Source: a virus. From it: a stretch of 64,000 bases of DNA. The stretch's first letter is position 1, and each line of letters begins with the position of its first letter. The translations under genes and the position numbers were made by a program. Positions 5,201 through 63,491 of this stretch are shown here, piece by piece. A model generated the notes under the pieces. The model saw only the letters and a program-made list of their open reading frames with translations. It made no database searches and was not told the origin of the DNA. The DNA lies in the IMG/VR virus record IMGVR_UViG_3300030339_000014, positions 32,317 to 96,316 of that record; one strand, given 5' to 3'.

Positions 5201-8200
5201 ATGCCAATAAAAGACGCAGATTTCGGAAAATACAAAAGACCAGGTATTTTCTTTCAGGAAATAGATCAAAGTATTGTTCAACTTCCAGTGCAAAATGTTT
5301 TAATTAATTTAGTTCCTGGATTTTCAAAAAAAGGTCCATTTAATACTCCTATTTATGTTACAAATCCATCTGATTTTAGTACAATATTTGGAGATGATGA
5401 TAGAAGATTAGAAAATAAAGGTTCTTTTTTTCACAAAACAGTTAAACAAATGCTTAAAAGTGGTCCAGTTTGGGCTTTGAACCTTTTAGCAACAGATCCA
5501 AATAGAGATAAAGTGGATTTGCAATCTATAGGTGTTTCAGCAAGCATCAATTCTCAAAATGGTGCAGTTGTTAGATCTGCATATGAGTCATTTTATAATA
5601 GACAAGATTTCTGGGAAAGAGATACAGATTCTTTTTTGAATGTAGTAAAAGCAAATAATTTTGGTGTTCAAGATACTGATAGATTGTTTCACATCACAAA
5701 TATGAGTGATACTGTAATAACAGTATTTATGTTTAAATCATCTGTTTCTGGCTTTGACGTTACTGCTGAAGCATGGTATGGTGATAGAACAAAGGTGCCA
5801 GCTTATCTCGATTATAGAGATTGGATATCAGATTACTTGGTGTCTGTTGTTGTTGTTGCAGGTGATTGGTCAGATTACAAAACATTGTCTAATGATACCA
5901 CATTTAGCAAATATTTTAATAGAAATGGTTTAATTAAAACTAAAATTTCATCATTCCTTAATGAAGGTACTGTATCTATTCTTGCTAGTTATGATTGCTC
6001 ATTAATTCCATATTTTAAAGATTTGAACAATAGAGATATGTATATTAAAAATATTATAAATAATGACACAGATAAAACTGGATTGTTCTGTGCATATAAC
6101 GAAGATGTTCTACTAGAGGCTGATTTTAGAGTGAGTAGTCTTGATATTATAGGTGGTACAATTGTCAATGAAGATGTGAATAATGTTAATTTTATGTCAT
6201 ATAATACAACTCTAAATGAACAAATAAAATATTCTCAAAAATATTTAGATTCTACTAATAATGTTATTACTAATAATTTAGATAGTTATAATACAGATTT
6301 TATTTCAGACGGAGTTGATGTTAGATCAGGCGCTTATGTAAATGGTAATATATTTGGTGTTACATGTAATACAACATCAATAACAGGAACAACAGGAGGA
6401 ACATTATCTACTAGTTTTACATTCAGTCCTAATGCATATTATGTAATAGGCGGCTCAATGATAACAGGAGGAACTTTTGTAGTTAATCATTCATCTAATG
6501 TACCATATCAATATGGTTCTAGATATGATGTTCTTTATCTTACTAATGATAATACCATTAATGTATTAGAAGGAGTTGCATCACCTTCAGTGACTGGTGC
6601 AATTTTACCTGATTATTTATTTAGCTTAACAAATACTATAATTGTTGGATATGTAAGAATAGTAAATTCTGGTTCAACAGCAACATTAACATATAATCCA
6701 ATATCTATTGATTCTAGTGGATATATTGCAGTTGGAACTGTATCAGGTTATAAAACTGTTATAAGTGACGGTTTCGATACTCAAGCTTATATGAATATAG
6801 AATTTGAAGGTACATCTGGGCAAACAGGAATTTATAATAATTATAATTATATTAGAGAATCACAAGCATTTTATGAAATTTATGAAAATGTTAATACAAA
6901 AAGTGTTTTAATTCAACAAAACGTTGGCGATTTTATTGCTGGATTTAAAGACTCAGTATCATCAGTTTCTGCTACAGAAGCAACATCAAATCACAATGCA
7001 AATATTAAAATATATATTAATAGTAATGAACCTAGTAAATGTCATGATGGTAATGTATTCTTAATGTATTATACTGATGATGAATTTTTGTTACATGATA
7101 AAATTGTTGATACAACAACATTAATAACAAGATATGATGTTCTTGGTACATCAGGACAAACAGGAATTGTGTCACAATATTCTAAAATGTATTTGGATTA
7201 TTATAATGGTGTTATTAATAATTATGATTATTTTTATGTTAATAATAATAGCGGATCAACCAAAATATACTTAGAAATGTTTATTGATCAAAATAATATA
7301 TTAACAGTTAATTTCTTATCATCAATTAATCCATCTACATCATATTCTGTTTCCAATGCAAACTGGGTAAATGTTAATGAATATAATAATAGTTTAAATA
7401 TATTTTCTAATAGAAGTAATTGGAAACAATCTGTTGAAATTTTAAAAACTGATGTTGATGATCTTACAATTTGCCAACAAATTTATATTGACAAAAATAG
7501 ATATTCTGAAATAACAATAGGTAGTTTCTTAACAGCATATTATGATGAATCATATTGGGCAGCACCTAATGGTGAAGGCTATTTAGAAGGATCTGTTCCT
7601 AGAAAATTGACCAGAATTATTAATGTTAAAAATGATCCAACAAATGTTGATAGAAAAATAATTTATACTGATGCACCTATTAAAATTGATACATTTAATT
7701 TAAGTGGACAAACACAATCTTTACAAACATTTAGTTATTCTGAAATTGATGTGTATGTTGATGAGTATAAAGCTTTAGTTTTATCTTCATTTAAAGTACA
7801 TGCAGATTCTATTCCTAATGGTACTGATGCAAGACAAAATTCAATACTTGATATTGTAGATATGAATACTAATCTTGGAAAAGCATTAGCAGATAAGAAT
7901 AAAATTTCATGGAGATACCTTGTTGATTCATTTGGATTAGGACTTACTCCAGTTAATGGACTTGGTTCAAAACAACAACTTGTTGACCTTTGTGGATTGA
8001 AACTTAACTGTTTAGGTTTTATTAGTATGCCAAGTGCTAAAATATTTAGAGAATCAAATAATCCATCATTTGTGAATGCTGATTATACACTAAATTTAGA
8101 ATTTGTGAAGGCAGGAGCTGATGATAGTAAAAATCCAGATTATTATTATCAATTTGCTCAACCAAATCAAGGAATTGACGGTAGAAGTTGTGTTGGATAT

Positions 8201-8830
8201 TTCTTTCCATATATTAGAATATATGATAATGGTATACCAAAATGGGTCCCACCAGCAGCTTATGCAGCTACAACTTATATGCAGAAATTTACATCTAATG
8301 TTGCAGGTATGACTCCTTGGACAATATGTGCAGGAATAACAAATGGTAGAGTTCAAACCATCACTAAAACTGAAATGGACTTTAATAATACAGATCTTGA
8401 ATCTTTACATGGAATGAATGCAAATCCAATTGTTTATAAATTGAATAACGGATATTGTATCAATGATGAAACATCAGCACAAGTATTTCCATATTCATCT
8501 CTTAGCTTCTTACATTCAAGAGAAGTTCTTATCGAACTTGAAAATAGAATGTATGATATGTTATTAGGATATCAATGGCAATTTAATACTGCAGAAATTA
8601 GAGCAGAAATTAAATATAGAGCTGATAAAATTTGTAAAGATATGCTAGATAATGATGCATTGTATGATTTCTGGAATGTTTGTGATGAAAGTAATAATAA
8701 TGATTATGTTATTGATTTACAGATGGGTGTAATTGACACATATGTAGAATTGATAAAAGGAATGGGAATTATTGTTAATAATATTACAATAATGAAGAAA
8801 GGTGATATAAAATCAATGGGATTTCATTAA
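5201..8830 (+). CDS. gp18: tail sheath protein, T4 gp18-like, unusually long
   Basis: 1209 residues against about 660 in T4. The N-terminal region (YKRPGIFFQEID, then VPGFSKKGPFNTPIYV) and the C-terminal region (PWTICAGITNGRV, LHGMNANPIVYKL, SSLSFLHSREVLIELENRM, FWNVCDESNNN) match contractile-sheath proteins. Roughly residues 330-800 form a Ser/Thr/Gly/Asn-rich, beta-type insertion containing GTSGQTGI twice, likely surface-exposed domains on the sheath. Sheath subunits polymerise around the gp19 tube and contract at infection. The start follows an A/T-rich leader with a TATATA-type box. A strong hairpin terminator follows. Confidence 0.92.
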   Translation: MPIKDADFGKYKRPGIFFQEIDQSIVQLPVQNVLINLVPGFSKKGPFNTPIYVTNPSDFSTIFGDDDRRLENKGSFFHKTVKQMLKSGPVWALNLLATDPNRDKVDLQSIGVSASINSQNGAVVRSAYESFYNRQDFWERDTDSFLNVVKANNFGVQDTDRLFHITNMSDTVITVFMFKSSVSGFDVTAEAWYGDRTKVPAYLDYRDWISDYLVSVVVVAGDWSDYKTLSNDTTFSKYFNRNGLIKTKISSFLNEGTVSILASYDCSLIPYFKDLNNRDMYIKNIINNDTDKTGLFCAYNEDVLLEADFRVSSLDIIGGTIVNEDVNNVNFMSYNTTLNEQIKYSQKYLDSTNNVITNNLDSYNTDFISDGVDVRSGAYVNGNIFGVTCNTTSITGTTGGTLSTSFTFSPNAYYVIGGSMITGGTFVVNHSSNVPYQYGSRYDVLYLTNDNTINVLEGVASPSVTGAILPDYLFSLTNTIIVGYVRIVNSGSTATLTYNPISIDSSGYIAVGTVSGYKTVISDGFDTQAYMNIEFEGTSGQTGIYNNYNYIRESQAFYEIYENVNTKSVLIQQNVGDFIAGFKDSVSSVSATEATSNHNANIKIYINSNEPSKCHDGNVFLMYYTDDEFLLHDKIVDTTTLITRYDVLGTSGQTGIVSQYSKMYLDYYNGVINNYDYFYVNNNSGSTKIYLEMFIDQNNILTVNFLSSINPSTSYSVSNANWVNVNEYNNSLNIFSNRSNWKQSVEILKTDVDDLTICQQIYIDKNRYSEITIGSFLTAYYDESYWAAPNGEGYLEGSVPRKLTRIINVKNDPTNVDRKIIYTDAPIKIDTFNLSGQTQSLQTFSYSEIDVYVDEYKALVLSSFKVHADSIPNGTDARQNSILDIVDMNTNLGKALADKNKISWRYLVDSFGLGLTPVNGLGSKQQLVDLCGLKLNCLGFISMPSAKIFRESNNPSFVNADYTLNLEFVKAGADDSKNPDYYYQFAQPNQGIDGRSCVGYFFPYIRIYDNGIPKWVPPAAYAATTYMQKFTSNVAGMTPWTICAGITNGRVQTITKTEMDFNNTDLESLHGMNANPIVYKLNNGYCINDETSAQVFPYSSLSFLHSREVLIELENRMYDMLLGYQWQFNTAEIRAEIKYRADKICKDMLDNDALYDFWNVCDESNNNDYVIDLQMGVIDTYVELIKGMGIIVNNITIMKKGDIKSMGFH

Positions 8831-16994: not shown

Positions 16995-17210
16995 ATGTCA
17001 AAAATAATGAATTTTCAAAAATTTTTAAGTGAAGCACTTGCAATGACATCCGATGAATTATCTGTTATTGATGACATGACAGATAATATTGATTGGAAAG
17101 AAGGAGATAAATTTGCATTTATAGATTTTAATGGTATAAAAGATATACCTATTAGTATTAGTAATAAAAAAAGTAGAAGAGATTTAATTGATATTAAGAA
17201 TAAAAACTAA
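16995..17210 (+). CDS. small protein with capsid-targeting-like N-terminus
   Basis: 71 residues starting MSKIMNFQKFLSEA. FQKFLSE fits the T4 internal-protein tag, with a possible gp21 cleavage after LSE. The remainder is acidic, then basic (NKKSRRDLIDIKNKN). No family recognised. Precedes the NUDIX gene. Confidence 0.55.
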   Translation: MSKIMNFQKFLSEALAMTSDELSVIDDMTDNIDWKEGDKFAFIDFNGIKDIPISISNKKSRRDLIDIKNKN

Positions 17211-17229: not shown

Positions 17230-17712
17230 ATGGTGAAATTTGATGAGTATATAGTTGAATTCAAAAAATATCAAGAAAAAGAGGTAAAATCTCATAAACT
17301 TTCTGGTGTTGTTCTTATATGTAATAATAAGATATTATTAGTAAGACCAAAAAAATTCAAGAAAAAAGAGAAAAAGTGGTCTATTCCAAAGGGACATATT
17401 GAGGATGATATGAGCAAAATAAAAACAGCTATCACGGAATTAAGGGAAGAAGCTGGAATAAAGATCGCAAAGAAACAAATTAATTCTAGTGATAAATTTG
17501 TTATTGAGTATCAAAAATCTGGAGTTAATAAAAATTTAACTTGTTATGTGGTAGATATTGAATATATAGATATCAACATAAAATTAGTTAATGATATGAT
17601 TTTGAAGAATTTTTTAAAAAATGAGATTGTAGAAGCTGGATTTTTTACAAAAAAAGCTGCTGAAGAACTTATAGAAGATAATCAATTAGATATACTAAAA
17701 ATTTTAAAATAA
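17230..17712 (+). CDS. NUDIX hydrolase
   Basis: 160 residues. The Nudix helix begins at GHIEDDMSKIKTAITELREE and ends AGI: the catalytic glutamates (E16, E19, E20 of the box) are kept, but the usual E7 is Met and R15 is Thr. GVVLICNNKILLVRPKKF and WSIPKGH are typical of ApnA/NDP-sugar-type members. The N-terminus MVKFDEYIVEF resembles the capsid-targeting-like tag, so the enzyme might be packaged. It lies 1 base before the HAD gene, suggesting a two-enzyme unit. Substrate unknown. Confidence 0.82.
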   Translation: MVKFDEYIVEFKKYQEKEVKSHKLSGVVLICNNKILLVRPKKFKKKEKKWSIPKGHIEDDMSKIKTAITELREEAGIKIAKKQINSSDKFVIEYQKSGVNKNLTCYVVDIEYIDINIKLVNDMILKNFLKNEIVEAGFFTKKAAEELIEDNQLDILKILK

Positions 17713-21387: not shown

Positions 21388-22230
21388 ATGAATATAATAA
21401 CATACTGTGAATATTTAACAGAAAATTCACAATCTTCTATATCTGAGTTCTTGAAATCTCAATATCATAAAATATTTCCTGAACCTACTGAGTCCCTAAA
21501 TACATTATTCTCATCTTTCATTAAACGATTAGATATTGATAAAAATGTATCTGTTTTATATCAGAGTTATTTGAAAAATAGTCAATCACTTACTCAAAAT
21601 GAGATAAATAATTCTAAAACTATTATTGATGTCGATAAAATATTAACTGAGAGTATTAAATATTTTTATTTTTCTTTAATTCCAATTGTTAATAGATTAC
21701 AAACAGATGAATTTACTGTAAGTGAAATATTTAGTAGATCAAGAGACAAGAGATTGATGACATTAATGAGCTATTCAGAAGATAAATTTTCAAATGCTGT
21801 GTCCACCTATGCTTCTGCTGTTATTGAGGAAATTAAAACTTCAGCAAATATAACAACTGGTACTACAACACCAATAGCTAATACTACTGTTACAGAAGCT
21901 ATAATATATAGAATAAATTATAAAATTGATAAAATACTAGAAGCTGATGATACTTCTACTATAACTAATTTGATAAATTATAAAAAAGCTGTTATAAATT
22001 GGATCAATATAACGTTGTATGATTTAATAAAACCTAAACTTCAATTATTAAGGCAGTTAGGCTTAAATACTAGCGATAGTGTAGATCAATTGGCGAATCA
22101 AATGAAAGGAACTACCAATGAAAATGCAAAAAAAATGATTCTTAATAAAATTTTTAATATGAATAAAGAAGAATTACAAGCATTGACTAATACATTAGGA
22201 TTAACTAAAGAACAATTAGGAGATTTATAA
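21388..22230 (+). CDS. putative virion protein with capsid-targeting-like N-terminus
   Basis: 280 residues. Starts MNIITYCEYLTEN; YCEYLTE fits F/YxxY[LI]xE followed by a possible protease cut after LTE. The rest is mainly helical with a Thr-rich loop near residue 160. The C-terminus MNKEELQALTNTLGLTKEQL looks helical. Likely co-transcribed with the gene at 20093. No family recognised. Confidence 0.55.
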   Translation: MNIITYCEYLTENSQSSISEFLKSQYHKIFPEPTESLNTLFSSFIKRLDIDKNVSVLYQSYLKNSQSLTQNEINNSKTIIDVDKILTESIKYFYFSLIPIVNRLQTDEFTVSEIFSRSRDKRLMTLMSYSEDKFSNAVSTYASAVIEEIKTSANITTGTTTPIANTTVTEAIIYRINYKIDKILEADDTSTITNLINYKKAVINWINITLYDLIKPKLQLLRQLGLNTSDSVDQLANQMKGTTNENAKKMILNKIFNMNKEELQALTNTLGLTKEQLGDL

Positions 22231-33541: not shown

Positions 33542-34165
33542 ATGATAAGTAAGGAACTCAGATATTCTGAATTGAAATATAATGGTGAAATTTTTACTGA
33601 ACAGTGGAAAATTGATGAGATTTTAATTGATAATAAATTCAATTGGATGGTTAATGCTGAAATAAAAAATGCTAGACTAGAAATTTTTCAAAATACATTA
33701 GTTTGGAATGCTGGTATTTGGTATAATGGAGATTGGTATTTTGGTGTTTGGAGAGATGGTGAGTGGAGATATGGAAATTGGCAAAACGGTGTGTGGTACA
33801 ATGGAGTATGGAGAAATGGTACATTTAAATCAGGTATTATTTATAAAGGTAATTTTTTCAAAGGAAAAATAGATGGAGGAGAAATAAGAGGAGGAAATTT
33901 TATTGATGTTGAAATATCTCCAAATGTAGTTGAATATACTGGAGAAGAATATCAAGTAAAAAAACAAGAAGAGCAATCTCAGTCTAATACTCAAGTTGTA
34001 ACAGCACAAGCTCAACCTAATACACAAGCTCAACCTAATGCGCCAGATAAAGTCAAAGTTCACAGTTCACAATCAGAAGTGAATCAAGTGATTCAACCAA
34101 AAAAAGAAAATGTAAAATATAATATGTATAGAATGAAAAATTTCGAATCATTCTCAAAAAAATAA
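33542..34165 (+). CDS. W-x-x-G repeat protein
   Basis: 207 residues. Residues about 55-110 are a run of short repeats WxxGxW (GIWYNGDWYFGVWRDGEW, GNWQNGVWYNGVWRNG), a regular beta-solenoid or MORN-like pattern seen in phage surface proteins. A Gln/Ala/Pro-rich linker follows, and the end is MKNFESFSKK, which looks like the N-terminal tag placed at the C-terminus. Probably a virion protein. No exact family. Confidence 0.6.
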   Translation: MISKELRYSELKYNGEIFTEQWKIDEILIDNKFNWMVNAEIKNARLEIFQNTLVWNAGIWYNGDWYFGVWRDGEWRYGNWQNGVWYNGVWRNGTFKSGIIYKGNFFKGKIDGGEIRGGNFIDVEISPNVVEYTGEEYQVKKQEEQSQSNTQVVTAQAQPNTQAQPNAPDKVKVHSSQSEVNQVIQPKKENVKYNMYRMKNFESFSKK

Positions 34166-34174
34166 TTAAACCCA

Positions 34175-34555
34175 ATGGATAAAAAAACTTTAAATTTTGA
34201 TGATTTCATAACAGAGAAACATCATGACAGTGACGACAGTATTGATACAATCACAATGGATGTACCATTGTTCATTCGTATGTTGGAATTTGCAAAGGAA
34301 GACGCTAAAACTGATATGGATTTACATAAAGCAACAGAAATAGCACTTAAAATATCAAAAAAAGAAGGTAAATTGTCTATGGATAATTACTATAAAATTG
34401 TAAGTGAGTGCGGACAAGGCGAATGTGAAGAAGATGATAAGAAAGATGATAAGAAAGATGATAAGAAAGATGATAAGAAAGAAGATAAAAAAGAAGATAA
34501 AAAAGAAGATAAAAAAGAAGATAAAAAAGAAGATAAAAAAGAAGACAAAAAATGA
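34175..34555 (+). CDS. cargo candidate with capsid-targeting-like tag and KKDD repeats
   Basis: 126 residues. Starts MDKKTLNFDDFITEKHH; FDDFITE fits the T4-type tag with cleavage after ITE. A helical core (VPLFIRMLEFAKEDAKTDMD) follows. The last 40 residues are DKK-DDKK-EDKK repeats encoded by a 12-15 bp tandem repeat. Overlaps the next gene by 4 bases. The next two genes open with related tags, forming a three-gene cargo cluster. Confidence 0.6.
   Translation: MDKKTLNFDDFITEKHHDSDDSIDTITMDVPLFIRMLEFAKEDAKTDMDLHKATEIALKISKKEGKLSMDNYYKIVSECGQGECEEDDKKDDKKDDKKDDKKEDKKEDKKEDKKEDKKEDKKEDKK
34434..34551 (+). repeat. tandem repeat coding DDKK/EDKK
   Basis: Twelve-base units, GATGATAAGAAA then GAAGATAAAAAA, about nine copies, inside the 3' end of the gene at 34175. 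Likely varies in length between relatives. Confidence 0.85.
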
Positions 34556-34866
34556 AAAAAACTTTAAATTTTGATGATTTTCTAAATGAAACATTATCGA
34601 CTATACCAGGTTCAAAAAATTCATCATCAGATAAACAGATTCTAAGAGCTGCAATTTTATCTGAGTTAGATACTATCAATTTATATGAGCAATTGGCTGA
34701 CGAAGCTAACGATAGCAAAATTAAAGATATTTTGTTAGATGTAGCTAGAGAAGAAAAAACTCACATTGGAGAATTTCAAGCTTTACTTAAAGAAATTGAT
34801 GAGGAATATGCAGAAGAATTAAAAAATGGTAAAAGAGAAGTAGAAAAAGAAGATAAAAACAAATAA
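34552..34866 (+). CDS. ferritin-like protein with capsid-targeting-like N-terminus
   Basis: 104 residues. Residues 1-13 are the tag (MKKTLNFDDFLNE). Residues 29-80 form two helices like encapsulated ferritin: Glu38 in AAILSELDTINLYEQLAD, then Glu68 and His71 in REEKTHIGEF, an E-30-E-x-x-H spacing equal to that family's metal site. Encapsulated ferritins oxidise and store iron inside encapsulin shells, which share the phage capsid fold. Here the tag would place the protein inside the phage head. Activity and packaging are inferences. Confidence 0.75.
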   Translation: MKKTLNFDDFLNETLSTIPGSKNSSSDKQILRAAILSELDTINLYEQLADEANDSKIKDILLDVAREEKTHIGEFQALLKEIDEEYAEELKNGKREVEKEDKNK

Positions 34867-34870
34867 TAAC

Positions 34871-35146
34871 ATGAAAAGAACAAAAGATTTCGATACATTC
34901 ACTGAATCAGTAGGAGATTTAGAAGATAGCTTCGTTAAAATTAATATAGATGAAACTGAATTAGAAGTTTCGGATAGACCAAAAGTAGGTAAATTAAATC
35001 AAATACCTGGTACAATAATAATTGAAACTCCAAGTAAGACTGATGAATATAATGCTAAAATGAGATTAGGAGGAGAAGTTATTGTTGATCCTAAATTTCC
35101 TGAAAAATCTATACACCACGTCAAAAAATTTAATGATTTTCATTAA
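34871..35146 (+). CDS. cargo candidate with capsid-targeting-like tag
   Basis: 91 residues. Starts MKRTKDFDTFTESVGDL, matching the neighbours' tags, and ends IHHVKKFNDFH. Beta-type middle (GTIIIETPSKTDEY). Third gene of the tagged cluster 34175-35146. No family recognised. Confidence 0.58.
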   Translation: MKRTKDFDTFTESVGDLEDSFVKINIDETELEVSDRPKVGKLNQIPGTIIIETPSKTDEYNAKMRLGGEVIVDPKFPEKSIHHVKKFNDFH

Positions 35147-45394: not shown

Positions 45395-45952
45395 TTATAC
45401 TGTTGGTGACACTGTTGTTTGTTGTGTAGTAGTTGTTGGTGCTACTGTTGTTTGTTGAGTTGTGGTTGTTGGTGCTACTGTTGTGGTTTCTGTTGATACA
45501 GTATTTTCAACACCATCATCATAAATCACTAAACTAGGAACAGGTTTATTTGTTTCATAGTAAAATGCCTTGTCTCCCATTTTAACAAATGGATGATCAA
45601 GATTTTTTACAATTTCTTGCAAAGATGTTAAATTATTTTTACTGACATAAACGTGAATTCCTCCTGATCTATTTTTACCGTCCCATCCTGCACTAAAATT
45701 TGTAGTTATTAAAGCCAATTTATCTGTAGATGTTGAAATTTTATCCAAATTAGGATTTTGATCTTTTCCACTCATATCAACATTCACTTTAAATCCCCCT
45801 TTATTTAATGCTGGGTGTATTGCATTAATTATATTAGTAGCAATTTTTTTATTTTCTTCTGGAGATTGATATCCTTCTACATCTGGTGATGTACTACCTT
45901 GGTACAAAGATGATTCTATCACAAAATCACCAAAATCTTTTAATTTTTTCAT
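45395..45952 (-). CDS. cargo candidate with capsid-targeting-like tag, Thr-rich end
   Basis: 185 residues. Starts MKKLKDFGDFVIESSLYQG (FGDFVIE, cut possible after VIE). A mixed alpha/beta core (AGWDGKNRSGGIHVYVSKNN) follows, and the end has repeats VAPTTTTQQTT. No family recognised. A TATATA-type box is upstream. Confidence 0.58.
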   Translation of the reverse strand: MKKLKDFGDFVIESSLYQGSTSPDVEGYQSPEENKKIATNIINAIHPALNKGGFKVNVDMSGKDQNPNLDKISTSTDKLALITTNFSAGWDGKNRSGGIHVYVSKNNLTSLQEIVKNLDHPFVKMGDKAFYYETNKPVPSLVIYDDGVENTVSTETTTVAPTTTTQQTTVAPTTTTQQTTVSPTV

Positions 45953-52331: not shown

Positions 52332-52748
52332 ATGACAAAATTAAAAAAATTTGAAATTTTCATAAAAGAAGGGTTAAAACCAGAAGAAGGCTTCGATGAT
52401 GTCGCTAATTATTCAGGTTTCGGTACAAAAAATATTGATTTCGTTGATGGCTCAATATTCACATTTTATGATTTTGCATTTGAAAATGATAACATTGTTT
52501 TGATTGGTAAACTTGAATTAAGTGAAAACTATAGAGTATCAAATAGAATTATCGAAAACTATAATATATTACTAGTCAATCATAATGGTAATGTTGAATT
52601 ACAAGATAAATCAAATAAGATAAAGTCCTTACCAACTAGAGACACTATGGAACAGTTAAAATATATTTATAAACATGCATATGAAACATTGATAGAAAAA
52701 GGTGATGATGCACAATATGATAATGTTAGAAAAAAATATTATAAATGA
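52332..52748 (+). CDS. cargo candidate with capsid-targeting-like tag
   Basis: 138 residues. Starts MTKLKKFEIFIKEGLKPEEG; FEIFIKE fits the T4-type tag with a cut after IKE. Body beta-type then helical. No family recognised. Followed by the gene at 52796. Confidence 0.57.
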   Translation: MTKLKKFEIFIKEGLKPEEGFDDVANYSGFGTKNIDFVDGSIFTFYDFAFENDNIVLIGKLELSENYRVSNRIIENYNILLVNHNGNVELQDKSNKIKSLPTRDTMEQLKYIYKHAYETLIEKGDDAQYDNVRKKYYK

Positions 52749-56341: not shown

Positions 56342-58114
56342 GTGGCAACATATAATAGATACAATCAGCCAAATTCCATGTATGATTTTGGTAGAGGTAA
56401 TGTAGGAAAAAGTTTCGGTAATAAAATATTAAGAAAATTAAGCAATTTTGGAATGGACGAACAAGAAATGGTCGTTAGAAATAGTCAGGCTATTGGAGCA
56501 TTTCAAGATACTAGTAATTTACTATATGAGCCTGGTACAAATATGTACGATTTATTTACAAAAAAAATAATTTCTAAAATATTAGAAAAAAAATCTATTG
56601 CATATTTAGACCGTAGATATTTAGATAAAAGAAAAATTTTACATCAATATGCAATAAAAGAAGAAATTAAAGATTATGTAACTAGAATAGCAGAAGAAGC
56701 AATTAATTATGATGATGATAATTATTTTTGTACTGTTACAGATTTACCAGATAATTATGACCAATCAATTAGAGTGAAATATCAGGAAAATTTCAAGAAA
56801 ATTTATAATGCTTTCAATTTTAATGATGGATTAACTGCTTGGAATTATATGAAAACTTTTTTAATTGATGGATTTTTATCATTTGAAATCGTTTACGATG
56901 ATGATCAAAAAAACATAATTGAACTAAATTTATTGGACCCATTAACATTAATTGTTGCTGCTGAACCAGGAACTGGTACAGTTGTTTGGATTCAAAACCC
57001 AGATATTCCTCAATTGAGGAGAGTTTTGTTGGATGCTAATATTATTTACATTTCATATTCAAATAATTTGGATTATGATGAAACAAGTTATGTAGAAGGA
57101 TTAATCAAACCTTATAATCAATTAAAATTATTGGAATTTACTAAATTGATGTATAATTTAAATCAAGCATCAATATACAAAAAATTTGTAATCCCTGTTA
57201 ATGGACTAACTAGACAACAAGCTGAACAACAAATAAGTCAACTAATGAGTGAATATCATGAAGACATAGAATGGGACGACACCACAGGAGTACCATACAT
57301 AAATGGTTCTACTAAAATTCCTCATTCAAAAGATTATTGGTTTCCTACATCAGAACTTGGAACACCAGAAATGGATATTATTCAACCACAACAAGCAGAA
57401 TTAAATGAAGATATAGTTTTACAGTGGTTTTATAAATCGTTCAAACGAGCATCAAAAATGCCATTCTCTAGATTGGATGAAGACCAGGGTGGAGGTAATT
57501 TTTATGATGACACTGCATCTATAACTATGGACGAAATAAGATTTAAAAATTTTGTTGGTAGATTACGAACATTGTTCAAAGAAGTATTAGTTAAGCCATT
57601 AAAAATACAGATGATTTTAGAATTTCCCGAATTGAGCAGTGATAAAATATTTGAAAGTTATATTAAATTAAATTTCAATTCAAATGATTTATTCGAAGAA
57701 TGGAAATATTTGAATAATTTAGCAAAAAGAGCAGAAATTTCATCTACGTTATCAAGTAATTTACAAGATGGTGATGGGAAGCCCTACCTTTCGATTGAGT
57801 GGATTGTGAGAAATATTATGAAATTTACTGATAAAGATATTGAATCTAACAACAAATATAAAATGATGAGTGGAACAGCAGGAGAAGGAGCAGGAGCATC
57901 TGGAGGTGGAGGCGGCTTTGGAGGAGAAGGCGGATTTCCAGGTGGTGAACCAGGATTTCCTGGTGCACAAGGTGATGCACAAGGTGGTGGACAGGCACAA
58001 GGTGGAGCACAAGGTGGAGCACAAGGTGGAGCACAAGGTGGAGCACAAGGTGGAGCACAAGGTGGAGCACAAGGTGGAGCACAAGGTGGAGCACAAGGAG
58101 AAGCAGAATTTTAA
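56342..58114 (+). CDS. gp20: portal protein, T4 gp20-like
   Basis: 590 residues against 524 in T4, from a GTG start. Conserved portal segments include LEKKSIAYLDRRYLD, FLIDGFLSFEIVYDD, VWIQNPD, DYWFPTSELGTPEMDIIQPQ and FVGRLRTLFKEVLVKPLKIQ. It forms the 12-mer gate at the head vertex for packaging and tail attachment. The C-terminal 75 residues are Gly/Ala/Gln-rich, including eight GGAQ repeats, an extension not present in T4. A terminator follows. Confidence 0.92.
   Translation: MATYNRYNQPNSMYDFGRGNVGKSFGNKILRKLSNFGMDEQEMVVRNSQAIGAFQDTSNLLYEPGTNMYDLFTKKIISKILEKKSIAYLDRRYLDKRKILHQYAIKEEIKDYVTRIAEEAINYDDDNYFCTVTDLPDNYDQSIRVKYQENFKKIYNAFNFNDGLTAWNYMKTFLIDGFLSFEIVYDDDQKNIIELNLLDPLTLIVAAEPGTGTVVWIQNPDIPQLRRVLLDANIIYISYSNNLDYDETSYVEGLIKPYNQLKLLEFTKLMYNLNQASIYKKFVIPVNGLTRQQAEQQISQLMSEYHEDIEWDDTTGVPYINGSTKIPHSKDYWFPTSELGTPEMDIIQPQQAELNEDIVLQWFYKSFKRASKMPFSRLDEDQGGGNFYDDTASITMDEIRFKNFVGRLRTLFKEVLVKPLKIQMILEFPELSSDKIFESYIKLNFNSNDLFEEWKYLNNLAKRAEISSTLSSNLQDGDGKPYLSIEWIVRNIMKFTDKDIESNNKYKMMSGTAGEGAGASGGGGGFGGEGGFPGGEPGFPGAQGDAQGGGQAQGGAQGGAQGGAQGGAQGGAQGGAQGGAQGGAQGEAEF
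58001..58096 (+). repeat. twelve-base tandem repeat coding GGAQ
   Basis: Eight exact copies of GGTGGAGCACAA at the 3' end of the portal gene. Exact identity at DNA level points to recent expansion by slippage. Confidence 0.95.
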
Positions 58115-61145: not shown

Positions 61146-63491
61146 ATGAAACCAGTTCTTATTGTAGAACATTGTATGGACGGTCTTAAACCAATAAATG
61201 AACAAGCTGATCAAAAGAAAGGTAATTACATTTTAGGGGGTACTTTTACTGAATTTAATATTAAGAATAGAAACGATAGAATCTATACTGCAGAAAAATT
61301 CTTACCTCACTTAGATGAATTATTGAGTCGTAAACAACAGCTTGGCGTAGTCTATGGTGAATTTGATCACCCTGATGTGTTCGACACATCGTTAGGAAGA
61401 GTTTCGCACACAATCGAAAATGCTGTATTTGATAAAGTATCAAATTCCGTAAAAGGAGAAATTAGATTGTTAAATACCCATTGGGGTAAAGAAGCGAAAG
61501 CACTTGTTGATGATGGTTGTCCTATTTTCGTATCATCTAGAGCCGCGGGCATCACCGAATCAGATGGTACAGTTACTGTTAAAAAATTATTTACATATGA
61601 TGCAGTTGCAGATCCAGGCTTCAGTTCAGCTAGAATGGAAGTCAAATCATTAAATGAAAGTTATGGATTTAGTGACAAAGATTACTTTAGGATATATGAT
61701 TTATCCGACGAGTCAAAAATAAATGAATTATTCCAAATGAACGAAGACTTTGTAACAAAAAAACAAATGACAGAGTATTCTAATTATTTAACAGAAGAAA
61801 TTGAAACCTTTAAATTGAAAATTAATGACATGGTTAAAGGTAAAAATGTCGATTTTGATCCTGCCAAATTAGAAAGTGTACTTGATTATTACGAACAATT
61901 ACATGAACAACAATCAAAAATGGTAAAATATTTAGATTATCTTGCAGAAAGTATGCAATTTGTTGTAAATGAAAATGTTCAATTGAAAAAAACAACAACA
62001 GATTTAATTAAACACAATGATTATCTTGCTGAAAACATTGAAAAAATAGGAAACTATTCAGAATATTTAGCTGAAAATCTTGACAAATCTATTGATTATG
62101 GTAAATATATTGCAGAAACTTTAGATAAAAATATTGATTTCTCAGAATATATAGCCGAACATGTAGATAAAAATATCAAATATTCAGAATACATTGCTGA
62201 AAATCTTGACAAATCTATTGACTATTCAGAATACATTGCTGAAAATCTTGACAGTTCTATTGTTTATTCAGAATATTTAGCTGAAAATCTAGATAATTCT
62301 ATTGTTTATTCAGAATATGTAGCTGAAAATCTTGACAATAATATTGCATATTCAGAATACATTGCTGAACACGTAGATAACAACATATCTTATTCAGAAT
62401 ATATAGCTGAAAATCTTGATGATTCTATGGCTTATACAAATTACATCGCTGAAAGTTTGGATAAAACTATCGAAAAATCAAAACTTCTTACAGAAAAATT
62501 AAAAACTGGTAAAGTACTTGAAAATTTTGAATTCATAACAGAAGATGAAAATACTAAAGATATTGACATTAATGGATATTATGAAGATCAAGCTCCTACA
62601 ATGGAAGGTCCAGCAGCAGAACCTGCTCAACCAACGACAGATCAGCCTATTACTCGACCAGTACAAGGTGAAGAAGTAGAAGGAGAAGGAGAAGAAGTTG
62701 AAGCTCAACCAGCTGTAGAAGGTGAACTACCAACAGAAGAACCAATTGAACCAACAGTTGAAGAACCAGTTCAAGGTGAAACTGAAGAAGGCGGATTACC
62801 AACACCAGGAGAAACAATTGCAGTAGGTGACAAAACAGGTGAAGTACTTGCAACTAATCCACAAAATGGTATGGTTGTTATACAATTGGACACTGAAGAA
62901 GAACCAGTTGAAGTACATGAATCTAAAATCACAAGACTAGGAAGCAAAGTACAAAAAATCGGAAACTCATTAAACGAAAGTATAAATAATTTGATCAATG
63001 AAACTAAAAAAAGAAAAGCTTCAGAAAATGATCAACCAAATTTTATGATGTTCTTAACAGAAAAAAGAAAAGCTGCTTATTATTCACTATCTAACGAAGA
63101 CAAAATTAAAGTAAAAATGATGTTGAAAGAAAGTGAAGGTAAATATACAAGTGAAGTTCAAGTTATATCACTTATGAATGAAGCTCTTTCTCCAAAAAGA
63201 AAATCATTTAATGATTTATTAATTGAATCAATGCCATCTGAATTAACCATTATATGGGAAAAATTAGATGTAACTATTAAAAACCAAGTGTTGGCAACAG
63301 CAAGATTATTTCCCTCTTTAGATACAGTACAAAAATTTGAGAGTTTTTGGTATAGTAGAGACTTAGCACGTTACACAAACGAAAAACCTGCAAAACAATT
63401 AATTACAGAAAATCATATCGTAGATGGCTCAAAATTGAGTGAATCACAGATTGATTATTTCAAATCAGCCTTTGATAAATTGAATTCTTAA
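61146..63491 (+). CDS. gp21/gp22: prohead protease-scaffold fusion (T4 gp21 plus gp22)
   Basis: 781 residues. Residues 1-185 are the serine protease: FNIKNRNDRIYTAE, YGEFDHPDV with candidate catalytic His75, and FVSSRAAGITESDG with Ser130. Residues about 190-300 are helical. Residues 304-443 are ten 14-residue repeats of type YSEYIAENLDKSID. An acidic Pro/Glu/Gly linker (500-620) follows, then a gp22-like helical C-terminus. In T4 gp21 and gp22 are separate; gp21 cuts after [LI]xE in gp22, gp23 and internal proteins. Nearly every repeat here contains IAE or LAE, so the protein should digest its own scaffold. Confidence 0.85.
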   Translation: MKPVLIVEHCMDGLKPINEQADQKKGNYILGGTFTEFNIKNRNDRIYTAEKFLPHLDELLSRKQQLGVVYGEFDHPDVFDTSLGRVSHTIENAVFDKVSNSVKGEIRLLNTHWGKEAKALVDDGCPIFVSSRAAGITESDGTVTVKKLFTYDAVADPGFSSARMEVKSLNESYGFSDKDYFRIYDLSDESKINELFQMNEDFVTKKQMTEYSNYLTEEIETFKLKINDMVKGKNVDFDPAKLESVLDYYEQLHEQQSKMVKYLDYLAESMQFVVNENVQLKKTTTDLIKHNDYLAENIEKIGNYSEYLAENLDKSIDYGKYIAETLDKNIDFSEYIAEHVDKNIKYSEYIAENLDKSIDYSEYIAENLDSSIVYSEYLAENLDNSIVYSEYVAENLDNNIAYSEYIAEHVDNNISYSEYIAENLDDSMAYTNYIAESLDKTIEKSKLLTEKLKTGKVLENFEFITEDENTKDIDINGYYEDQAPTMEGPAAEPAQPTTDQPITRPVQGEEVEGEGEEVEAQPAVEGELPTEEPIEPTVEEPVQGETEEGGLPTPGETIAVGDKTGEVLATNPQNGMVVIQLDTEEEPVEVHESKITRLGSKVQKIGNSLNESINNLINETKKRKASENDQPNFMMFLTEKRKAAYYSLSNEDKIKVKMMLKESEGKYTSEVQVISLMNEALSPKRKSFNDLLIESMPSELTIIWEKLDVTIKNQVLATARLFPSLDTVQKFESFWYSRDLARYTNEKPAKQLITENHIVDGSKLSESQIDYFKSAFDKLNS
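62055..62474 (+). repeat. ten 42-bp coding repeats in the scaffold region
   Basis: Ten in-frame units starting TATTCAGAATA(C/T) and coding YSEYIAENLDxSIx. Units differ at synonymous and some amino-acid positions, so this is an older array than the GGAQ repeat. Confidence 0.92.

Follow-up and report, generated by a model that had tools for sequence, protein, structure and literature searches.

A genome fragment from a T4-like phage, probably a giant one, was found to encode an EncFtn-type ferritin-like protein whose packaging into the phage head is very probable, as judged from a T4-style N-terminal tag together with a cut site predicted exactly where the untagged cellular relatives begin. The gene lies in the window, the 64,000-nucleotide stretch analyzed here, which represents the final 64 kb of the 96-kb virus record IMGVR_UViG_3300030339_000014. 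The portal protein of this phage, which is of the T4 type (56378–58114, plus strand; Portal_T4 1e-62; phrog_213), is 64% identical to its counterpart in an uncultured huge phage of 735 kb; the record therefore probably covers just part of a large genome. Elsewhere in the window, a tail sheath protein of very large size (1209 aa, phrog_34521) was noted at positions 5201–8830.

The ferritin gene occupies positions 34552–34866 on the plus strand, starts with ATG and encodes a precursor of 104 aa, reading MKKTLNFDDFLNE-TLSTIPGSKNSSSDKQILRAAILSELDTINLYEQLADEANDSKIKDILLDVAREEKTHIGEFQALLKEIDEEYAEELKNGKREVEKEDKNK, which was characterized using Pfam, NCBIfam, phmmer, and AlphaFold. The open reading frame and its tag were found as given in the preliminary description. 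The tag, MKKTLNFDDFLNE, comprises 13 residues of the capsid-targeting type (34552–34590, plus strand), and cleavage is predicted after LNE, based on IPIII-like spacing and on the boundary with the start of cellular homologues. The predicted mature ferritin (34591–34866, plus strand) would begin TLSTIPGSK and carry the ferroxidase residues E38, Y45, E68, and H71 (precursor numbering). The gene starts 4 nt inside the 3′ end of a gene for a 126-aa protein (34175–34555, plus strand), a sister cargo candidate with the tag MDKKTLNFDDFITE and a D/E/K-rich repeat tail. Order and tags of this pair are conserved in the close relatives L001 to L005, and the core of the sister protein makes up the C-terminal end of a protein of 293 aa in the 735-kb LR756501 (L183:6848-7729). 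The next gene of the cluster (34871–35146, plus strand) encodes a protein of 91 aa, the N-terminus of which resembles the tag more loosely (MKRTKDFDTFTES). For the ferritin and its tagged neighbors, a PHROGs search returned no informative family. Upstream, a 207-aa protein (33542–34165) contains W/G-rich repeated segments (WYNGVWRNG-like) and ends in MKNFESFSKK, a tag-like string.

By its residues and its predicted fold, the product of 34552–34866 belongs with the EncFtn-like proteins. Both the encapsulated-ferritin and the rubrerythrin families, proposed earlier as targets of a profile search, were matched: Pfam returned Rubrerythrin (2e-8) and EncFtn-like PF22277 (2e-6; 27.9 bits for a cut-off of 27), each exceeding its cut-off. 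The NCBIfam model EncB_fam (NF058679) scored 4e-18 and 65.7 bits, under its full-protein cut-off of 90, as likewise did the two cellular stand-alone homologues tested. Following phmmer comparison with the PDB, the best sequence matches were 5n5e, the EncFtn domain of Pyrococcus furiosus (2e-20), and 2e0z, its encapsulin fusion (2e-19); together with the Pfam scores, these matches establish the ferritin-like core as true homology.

Glu38, Glu68, and His71, which had been read as the residues of encapsulated ferritins, align with Glu32, Glu62, and His65 of Rhodospirillum rubrum EncFtn, which are the ferroxidase ligands of that protein (PMC5012862). Similarly, Tyr45 is the counterpart of its Tyr39; the correspondence was taken from aligned ranges of equal length (phage 28–91, R. 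rubrum EncFtn 22–85). All four positions are invariant across 52 divergent homologues and, given these ligands, ferroxidase activity of the phage protein is likely. An AlphaFold monomer, modeled with a homologue alignment, reached a pLDDT of 95–99 in the core. It contains the two long helices of the "two-helix" core described earlier, and that description has to be extended by a third, C-terminal helix at 84–102. Top fold matches in the PDB were 5n5e (0.7–1.1 Å), followed by EncB, EncC, Rru_A0973, and 3k6c. The viral fold library gave weak matches, the best (E 0.03) being to a rubrerythrin-type protein from a filamentous virus of archaea.

The tag MKKTLNFDDFLNE fits the T4-type N-terminal pattern aromatic-xx-aromatic-[LI]-x-E, its segment FDDFLNE having the spacing of T4 IPIII. 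The first 10 residues of IPIII are enough for packaging, residues 4 and 7 governing targeting and residues 8 and 10 processing, and the protease gp21 cleaves after L/I-x-E (PMC9026906). By analogy, the tag of the ferritin is taken to work like that of a T4 internal protein. The motif [FY]xx[FY][LIV]xE, starting within the first 15 residues, was found in nine predicted proteins of the genome versus 0.3–1.35 expected from its frequency elsewhere. Motif scanning thus yielded, on the plus strand, a 71-aa protein with FQKFLSE (16995–17210), a protein with FDEYIVE and a Nudix-like motif (17230–17712), a 280-aa protein with YCEYLTE (21388–22230), and a 138-aa protein with FEIFIKE (52332–52748); on the minus strand, a 185-aa protein carries FGDFVIE (45395–45952). 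The tagged protein with the Nudix-like motif may be a second packaged enzyme. As a tool, the motif makes it simple to draw up lists of proteins that may be packaged into the heads of uncultured huge phages.

The same motif recurs in the protein that would process such tags. Positions 61146–63491 (plus strand) encode a 781-aa protein in which a gp21-like prohead protease (residues ∼2–247; phrog_207 8e-31, Peptidase_S77 1e-4, S80 4e-6) is followed by a long scaffold-like C-terminal part. By motif scan, ten tandem 14-residue repeats (xxYSEYIAENLDxS; 62046–62465, plus strand) were located in this part, each containing the cargo-tag motif and a gp21-type site. About twelve copies of YSEYIAE are present in all, ten within the array and the others outside. 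Repeat copy number varies among relatives, and the layout of protease, scaffold, and repeats is common to the 735-kb huge phage (L183:13914-16337); in this huge relative, LR756501, the head module and the repeats are present and EncFtn was not detectable. From these shared motifs, we infer that the ferritin tag may imitate the scaffold repeats and be recognized through them. The AlphaFold model of the protease-scaffold protein was of low quality (mean pLDDT 38.7); values of 70–78 were confined to a portion of the repeat region, modeled as a long helix, and no argument is therefore based on its fold. Major capsid proteins of relatives contain a comparable candidate cleavage site (SMNE/QMNE, FLME).

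Cellular relatives were found at 80 loci, many of them in archaeal assemblies and others in bacterial ones. The proteins sampled are untagged, typically comprise about 95 residues and mostly begin like MLSKIPIDL; no recurrent neighbor gene family was detected among the 80 loci. For comparison of the boundary, 26 viral clusters were aligned with 13 cellular sequences. In 19 of the 26 clusters, the last residue of an [LI]-x-E stands immediately ahead of the column that holds the cellular start methionine, compared with 76 of 2481 background positions (3.1%), a count that depends on predicted start codons, can be favored by alignment gaps and concerns a short motif. One of the clusters, L058, was scored as site-bearing solely via a minimal IKE, and the exact site is absent from the other seven. 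The binomial probability of the coincidence is about 1e-23, which overstates its strength since the viral clusters are related and the motif is short. Although the N-terminal parts of the viral proteins range in length between a few and about 50 residues, the site is kept. As it coincides with the cellular start, the cut would restore the cellular form of the ferritin.

These data also bear on the reading that the protein is an unpackaged metabolic protein of the infected cell, handling iron or peroxide during replication, and that the tag is there by accident, as a conserved N-terminus. The nearest cellular homologues are indeed stand-alone proteins with no shell partner, and viral versions without a tag exist (L020 and L022). 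However, the enrichment of the tag in the genome, the repeats of the identical motif in the protease-scaffold protein, and the exact match, across diverse phages, between the site and the start of the cellular proteins would all be left unexplained, making this reading very improbable. Packaging into the head is preferred.

In a tree of the family, a single clade holds most of the tagged viral proteins, and two cellular sequences branch within or close to it. L020, L022, and L058 sit among the cellular proteins, where untagged viral copies mostly group, and L060 and L092/L093 are placed on a distant branch; because the tree is based on 76 columns, many forks are unresolved. Some tagged ferritins occur in records having both a T4-type portal and a gp21-like protease. 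For several other tagged copies, neither a T4-type portal nor a gp21-type protease was detected in the record, many of these records being fragments. When six stand-alone viral EncFtn sequences were used as queries against 50,697 catalogued phage records, no matches were obtained. A portal-fused domain used as query gave Eggerthella phage LE2-3 as its sole match among catalogued phage records; here the EncFtn domain lies inside a 948-aa protein whose gene is located between the portal and capsid genes. In the paper library searched, none was found on phage-packaged EncFtn or on phage LE2-3.

Fusions of the domain were found to portal proteins (L021, L053, and L054) and to a DUF2213 protein (L023), and EncFtn domains follow Nudix domains in large phage open reading frames (L024:6837-9626 and L057:4171-6249). 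In L021, a phage portal is joined in a single open reading frame (5929–8637) to an EncFtn and a topoisomerase IB domain. Since the domain is fused to portal or protease-type proteins in some phages, a structural role is conceivable, and the ferritin could be head cargo that is structural or inert, its fold serving as filler or core-former and not as an enzyme. The head tag on the ferritin and the sister tagged proteins without a recognized enzyme domain are in agreement with this. Invariance of the four ferroxidase residues is not expected of an inert filler, and this alternative is considered unlikely.

Packaging of an enzyme remains the favored reading. The phage would handle a di-iron ferroxidase of the EncFtn class like one of its internal head proteins. 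The 13-residue tag would recruit the ferritin into the prohead core, probably via its likeness to the YSEYIAE segments of the scaffold. The prohead protease would then cut after L-N-E, by which the tag is lost and a ferritin starting like the cellular forms is locked in the capsid. On the T4 precedent and the sequence evidence, it is highly likely that the tag recruits the protein, that the cut falls after LNE, and that the ferritin is packaged. In a further, weaker step, favored here among the possible roles, metal-free subunits would leave the head with the DNA, and Fe(II) would assemble them as a ferroxidase ring once they are in the new host, so that phage DNA suffers less Fenton damage. 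EncFtn assembly is triggered by iron binding (PMC5012862), and passage as monomers would thus be possible; by this analogy, release as monomers followed by assembly in the host is plausible, if somewhat doubtful. Because EncFtn by itself does not store iron (PMC5012862), a protective benefit without encapsulin is uncertain. As the leading alternative, the ferritin may protect the packaged DNA already inside the virion. Taken as a whole, from recruitment and cleavage to packaging, the explanation as an EncFtn-class head protein is held with good confidence.

An iron-oxidizing enzyme may, as these results suggest, be present in the virions of large phages. Encapsulins are regarded as phage capsids that were domesticated (PMC8346489). 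Ferritin-like proteins are among the main encapsulin cargoes, and a member of their family whose different tag would direct it to a genuine phage capsid connects the two systems. It becomes testable whether the pairing of capsid and ferritin is older than, or parallel to, encapsulins. Tentatively, the phage-specific EncFtn clade could represent a widespread metal-handling head cargo, with capsids serving as compartments for ferritin while they are assembled and delivering the ferroxidase at infection, parallel to or as a precursor of the encapsulin-ferritin partnership.

The preliminary description suggested that the phage applies the cargo principle of encapsulated ferritins, its tag sitting at the opposite end, and comparison with known systems supports this. 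The encapsulin C-terminal targeting peptide [LF]-x-[VI]-x-x-[LI] is absent from the phage ferritin, and an encapsulin shell gene (PF04454) was found in none of 18 viral records (the window's own, a fragment, and 17 related) and in none of five cellular genomes, which argues against encapsulin cargo; a T4-type tag and a gp21-like protease are present instead. The EncFtn of P. furiosus (PFC_05175; 5n5e) resembles the phage ferritin in core identity (55–59%), predicted fold (rmsd 0.7–1.1 Å), and ferroxidase ligands; its domain, however, is fused to the encapsulin shell, whereas the phage ferritin is separate, with an N-terminal tag of the cleavable type. R. rubrum EncFtn and Myxococcus xanthus EncB/EncC share the fold and the E/Y/E/H ferroxidase set and differ in having a C-terminal targeting peptide where the phage ferritin has an N-terminal tag. 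The archaeal and bacterial stand-alone ferritin-like proteins (L096 to L175) are about 50–60% identical and their MLSxIP-like start matches the predicted mature phage form, but they are untagged and without a recurrent neighbor gene. Finally, T4 IPI to IPIII share the short N-terminal tag with equal spacing and L/I-x-E end, and a gp21-like protease is encoded in this genome; in contrast to T4, the phage cargo here is of the ferroxidase type, and the protease continues into a scaffold that contains tag-like repeats. The EncFtn-type ferritin with a T4-type head tag is thus a new combination of known kinds.
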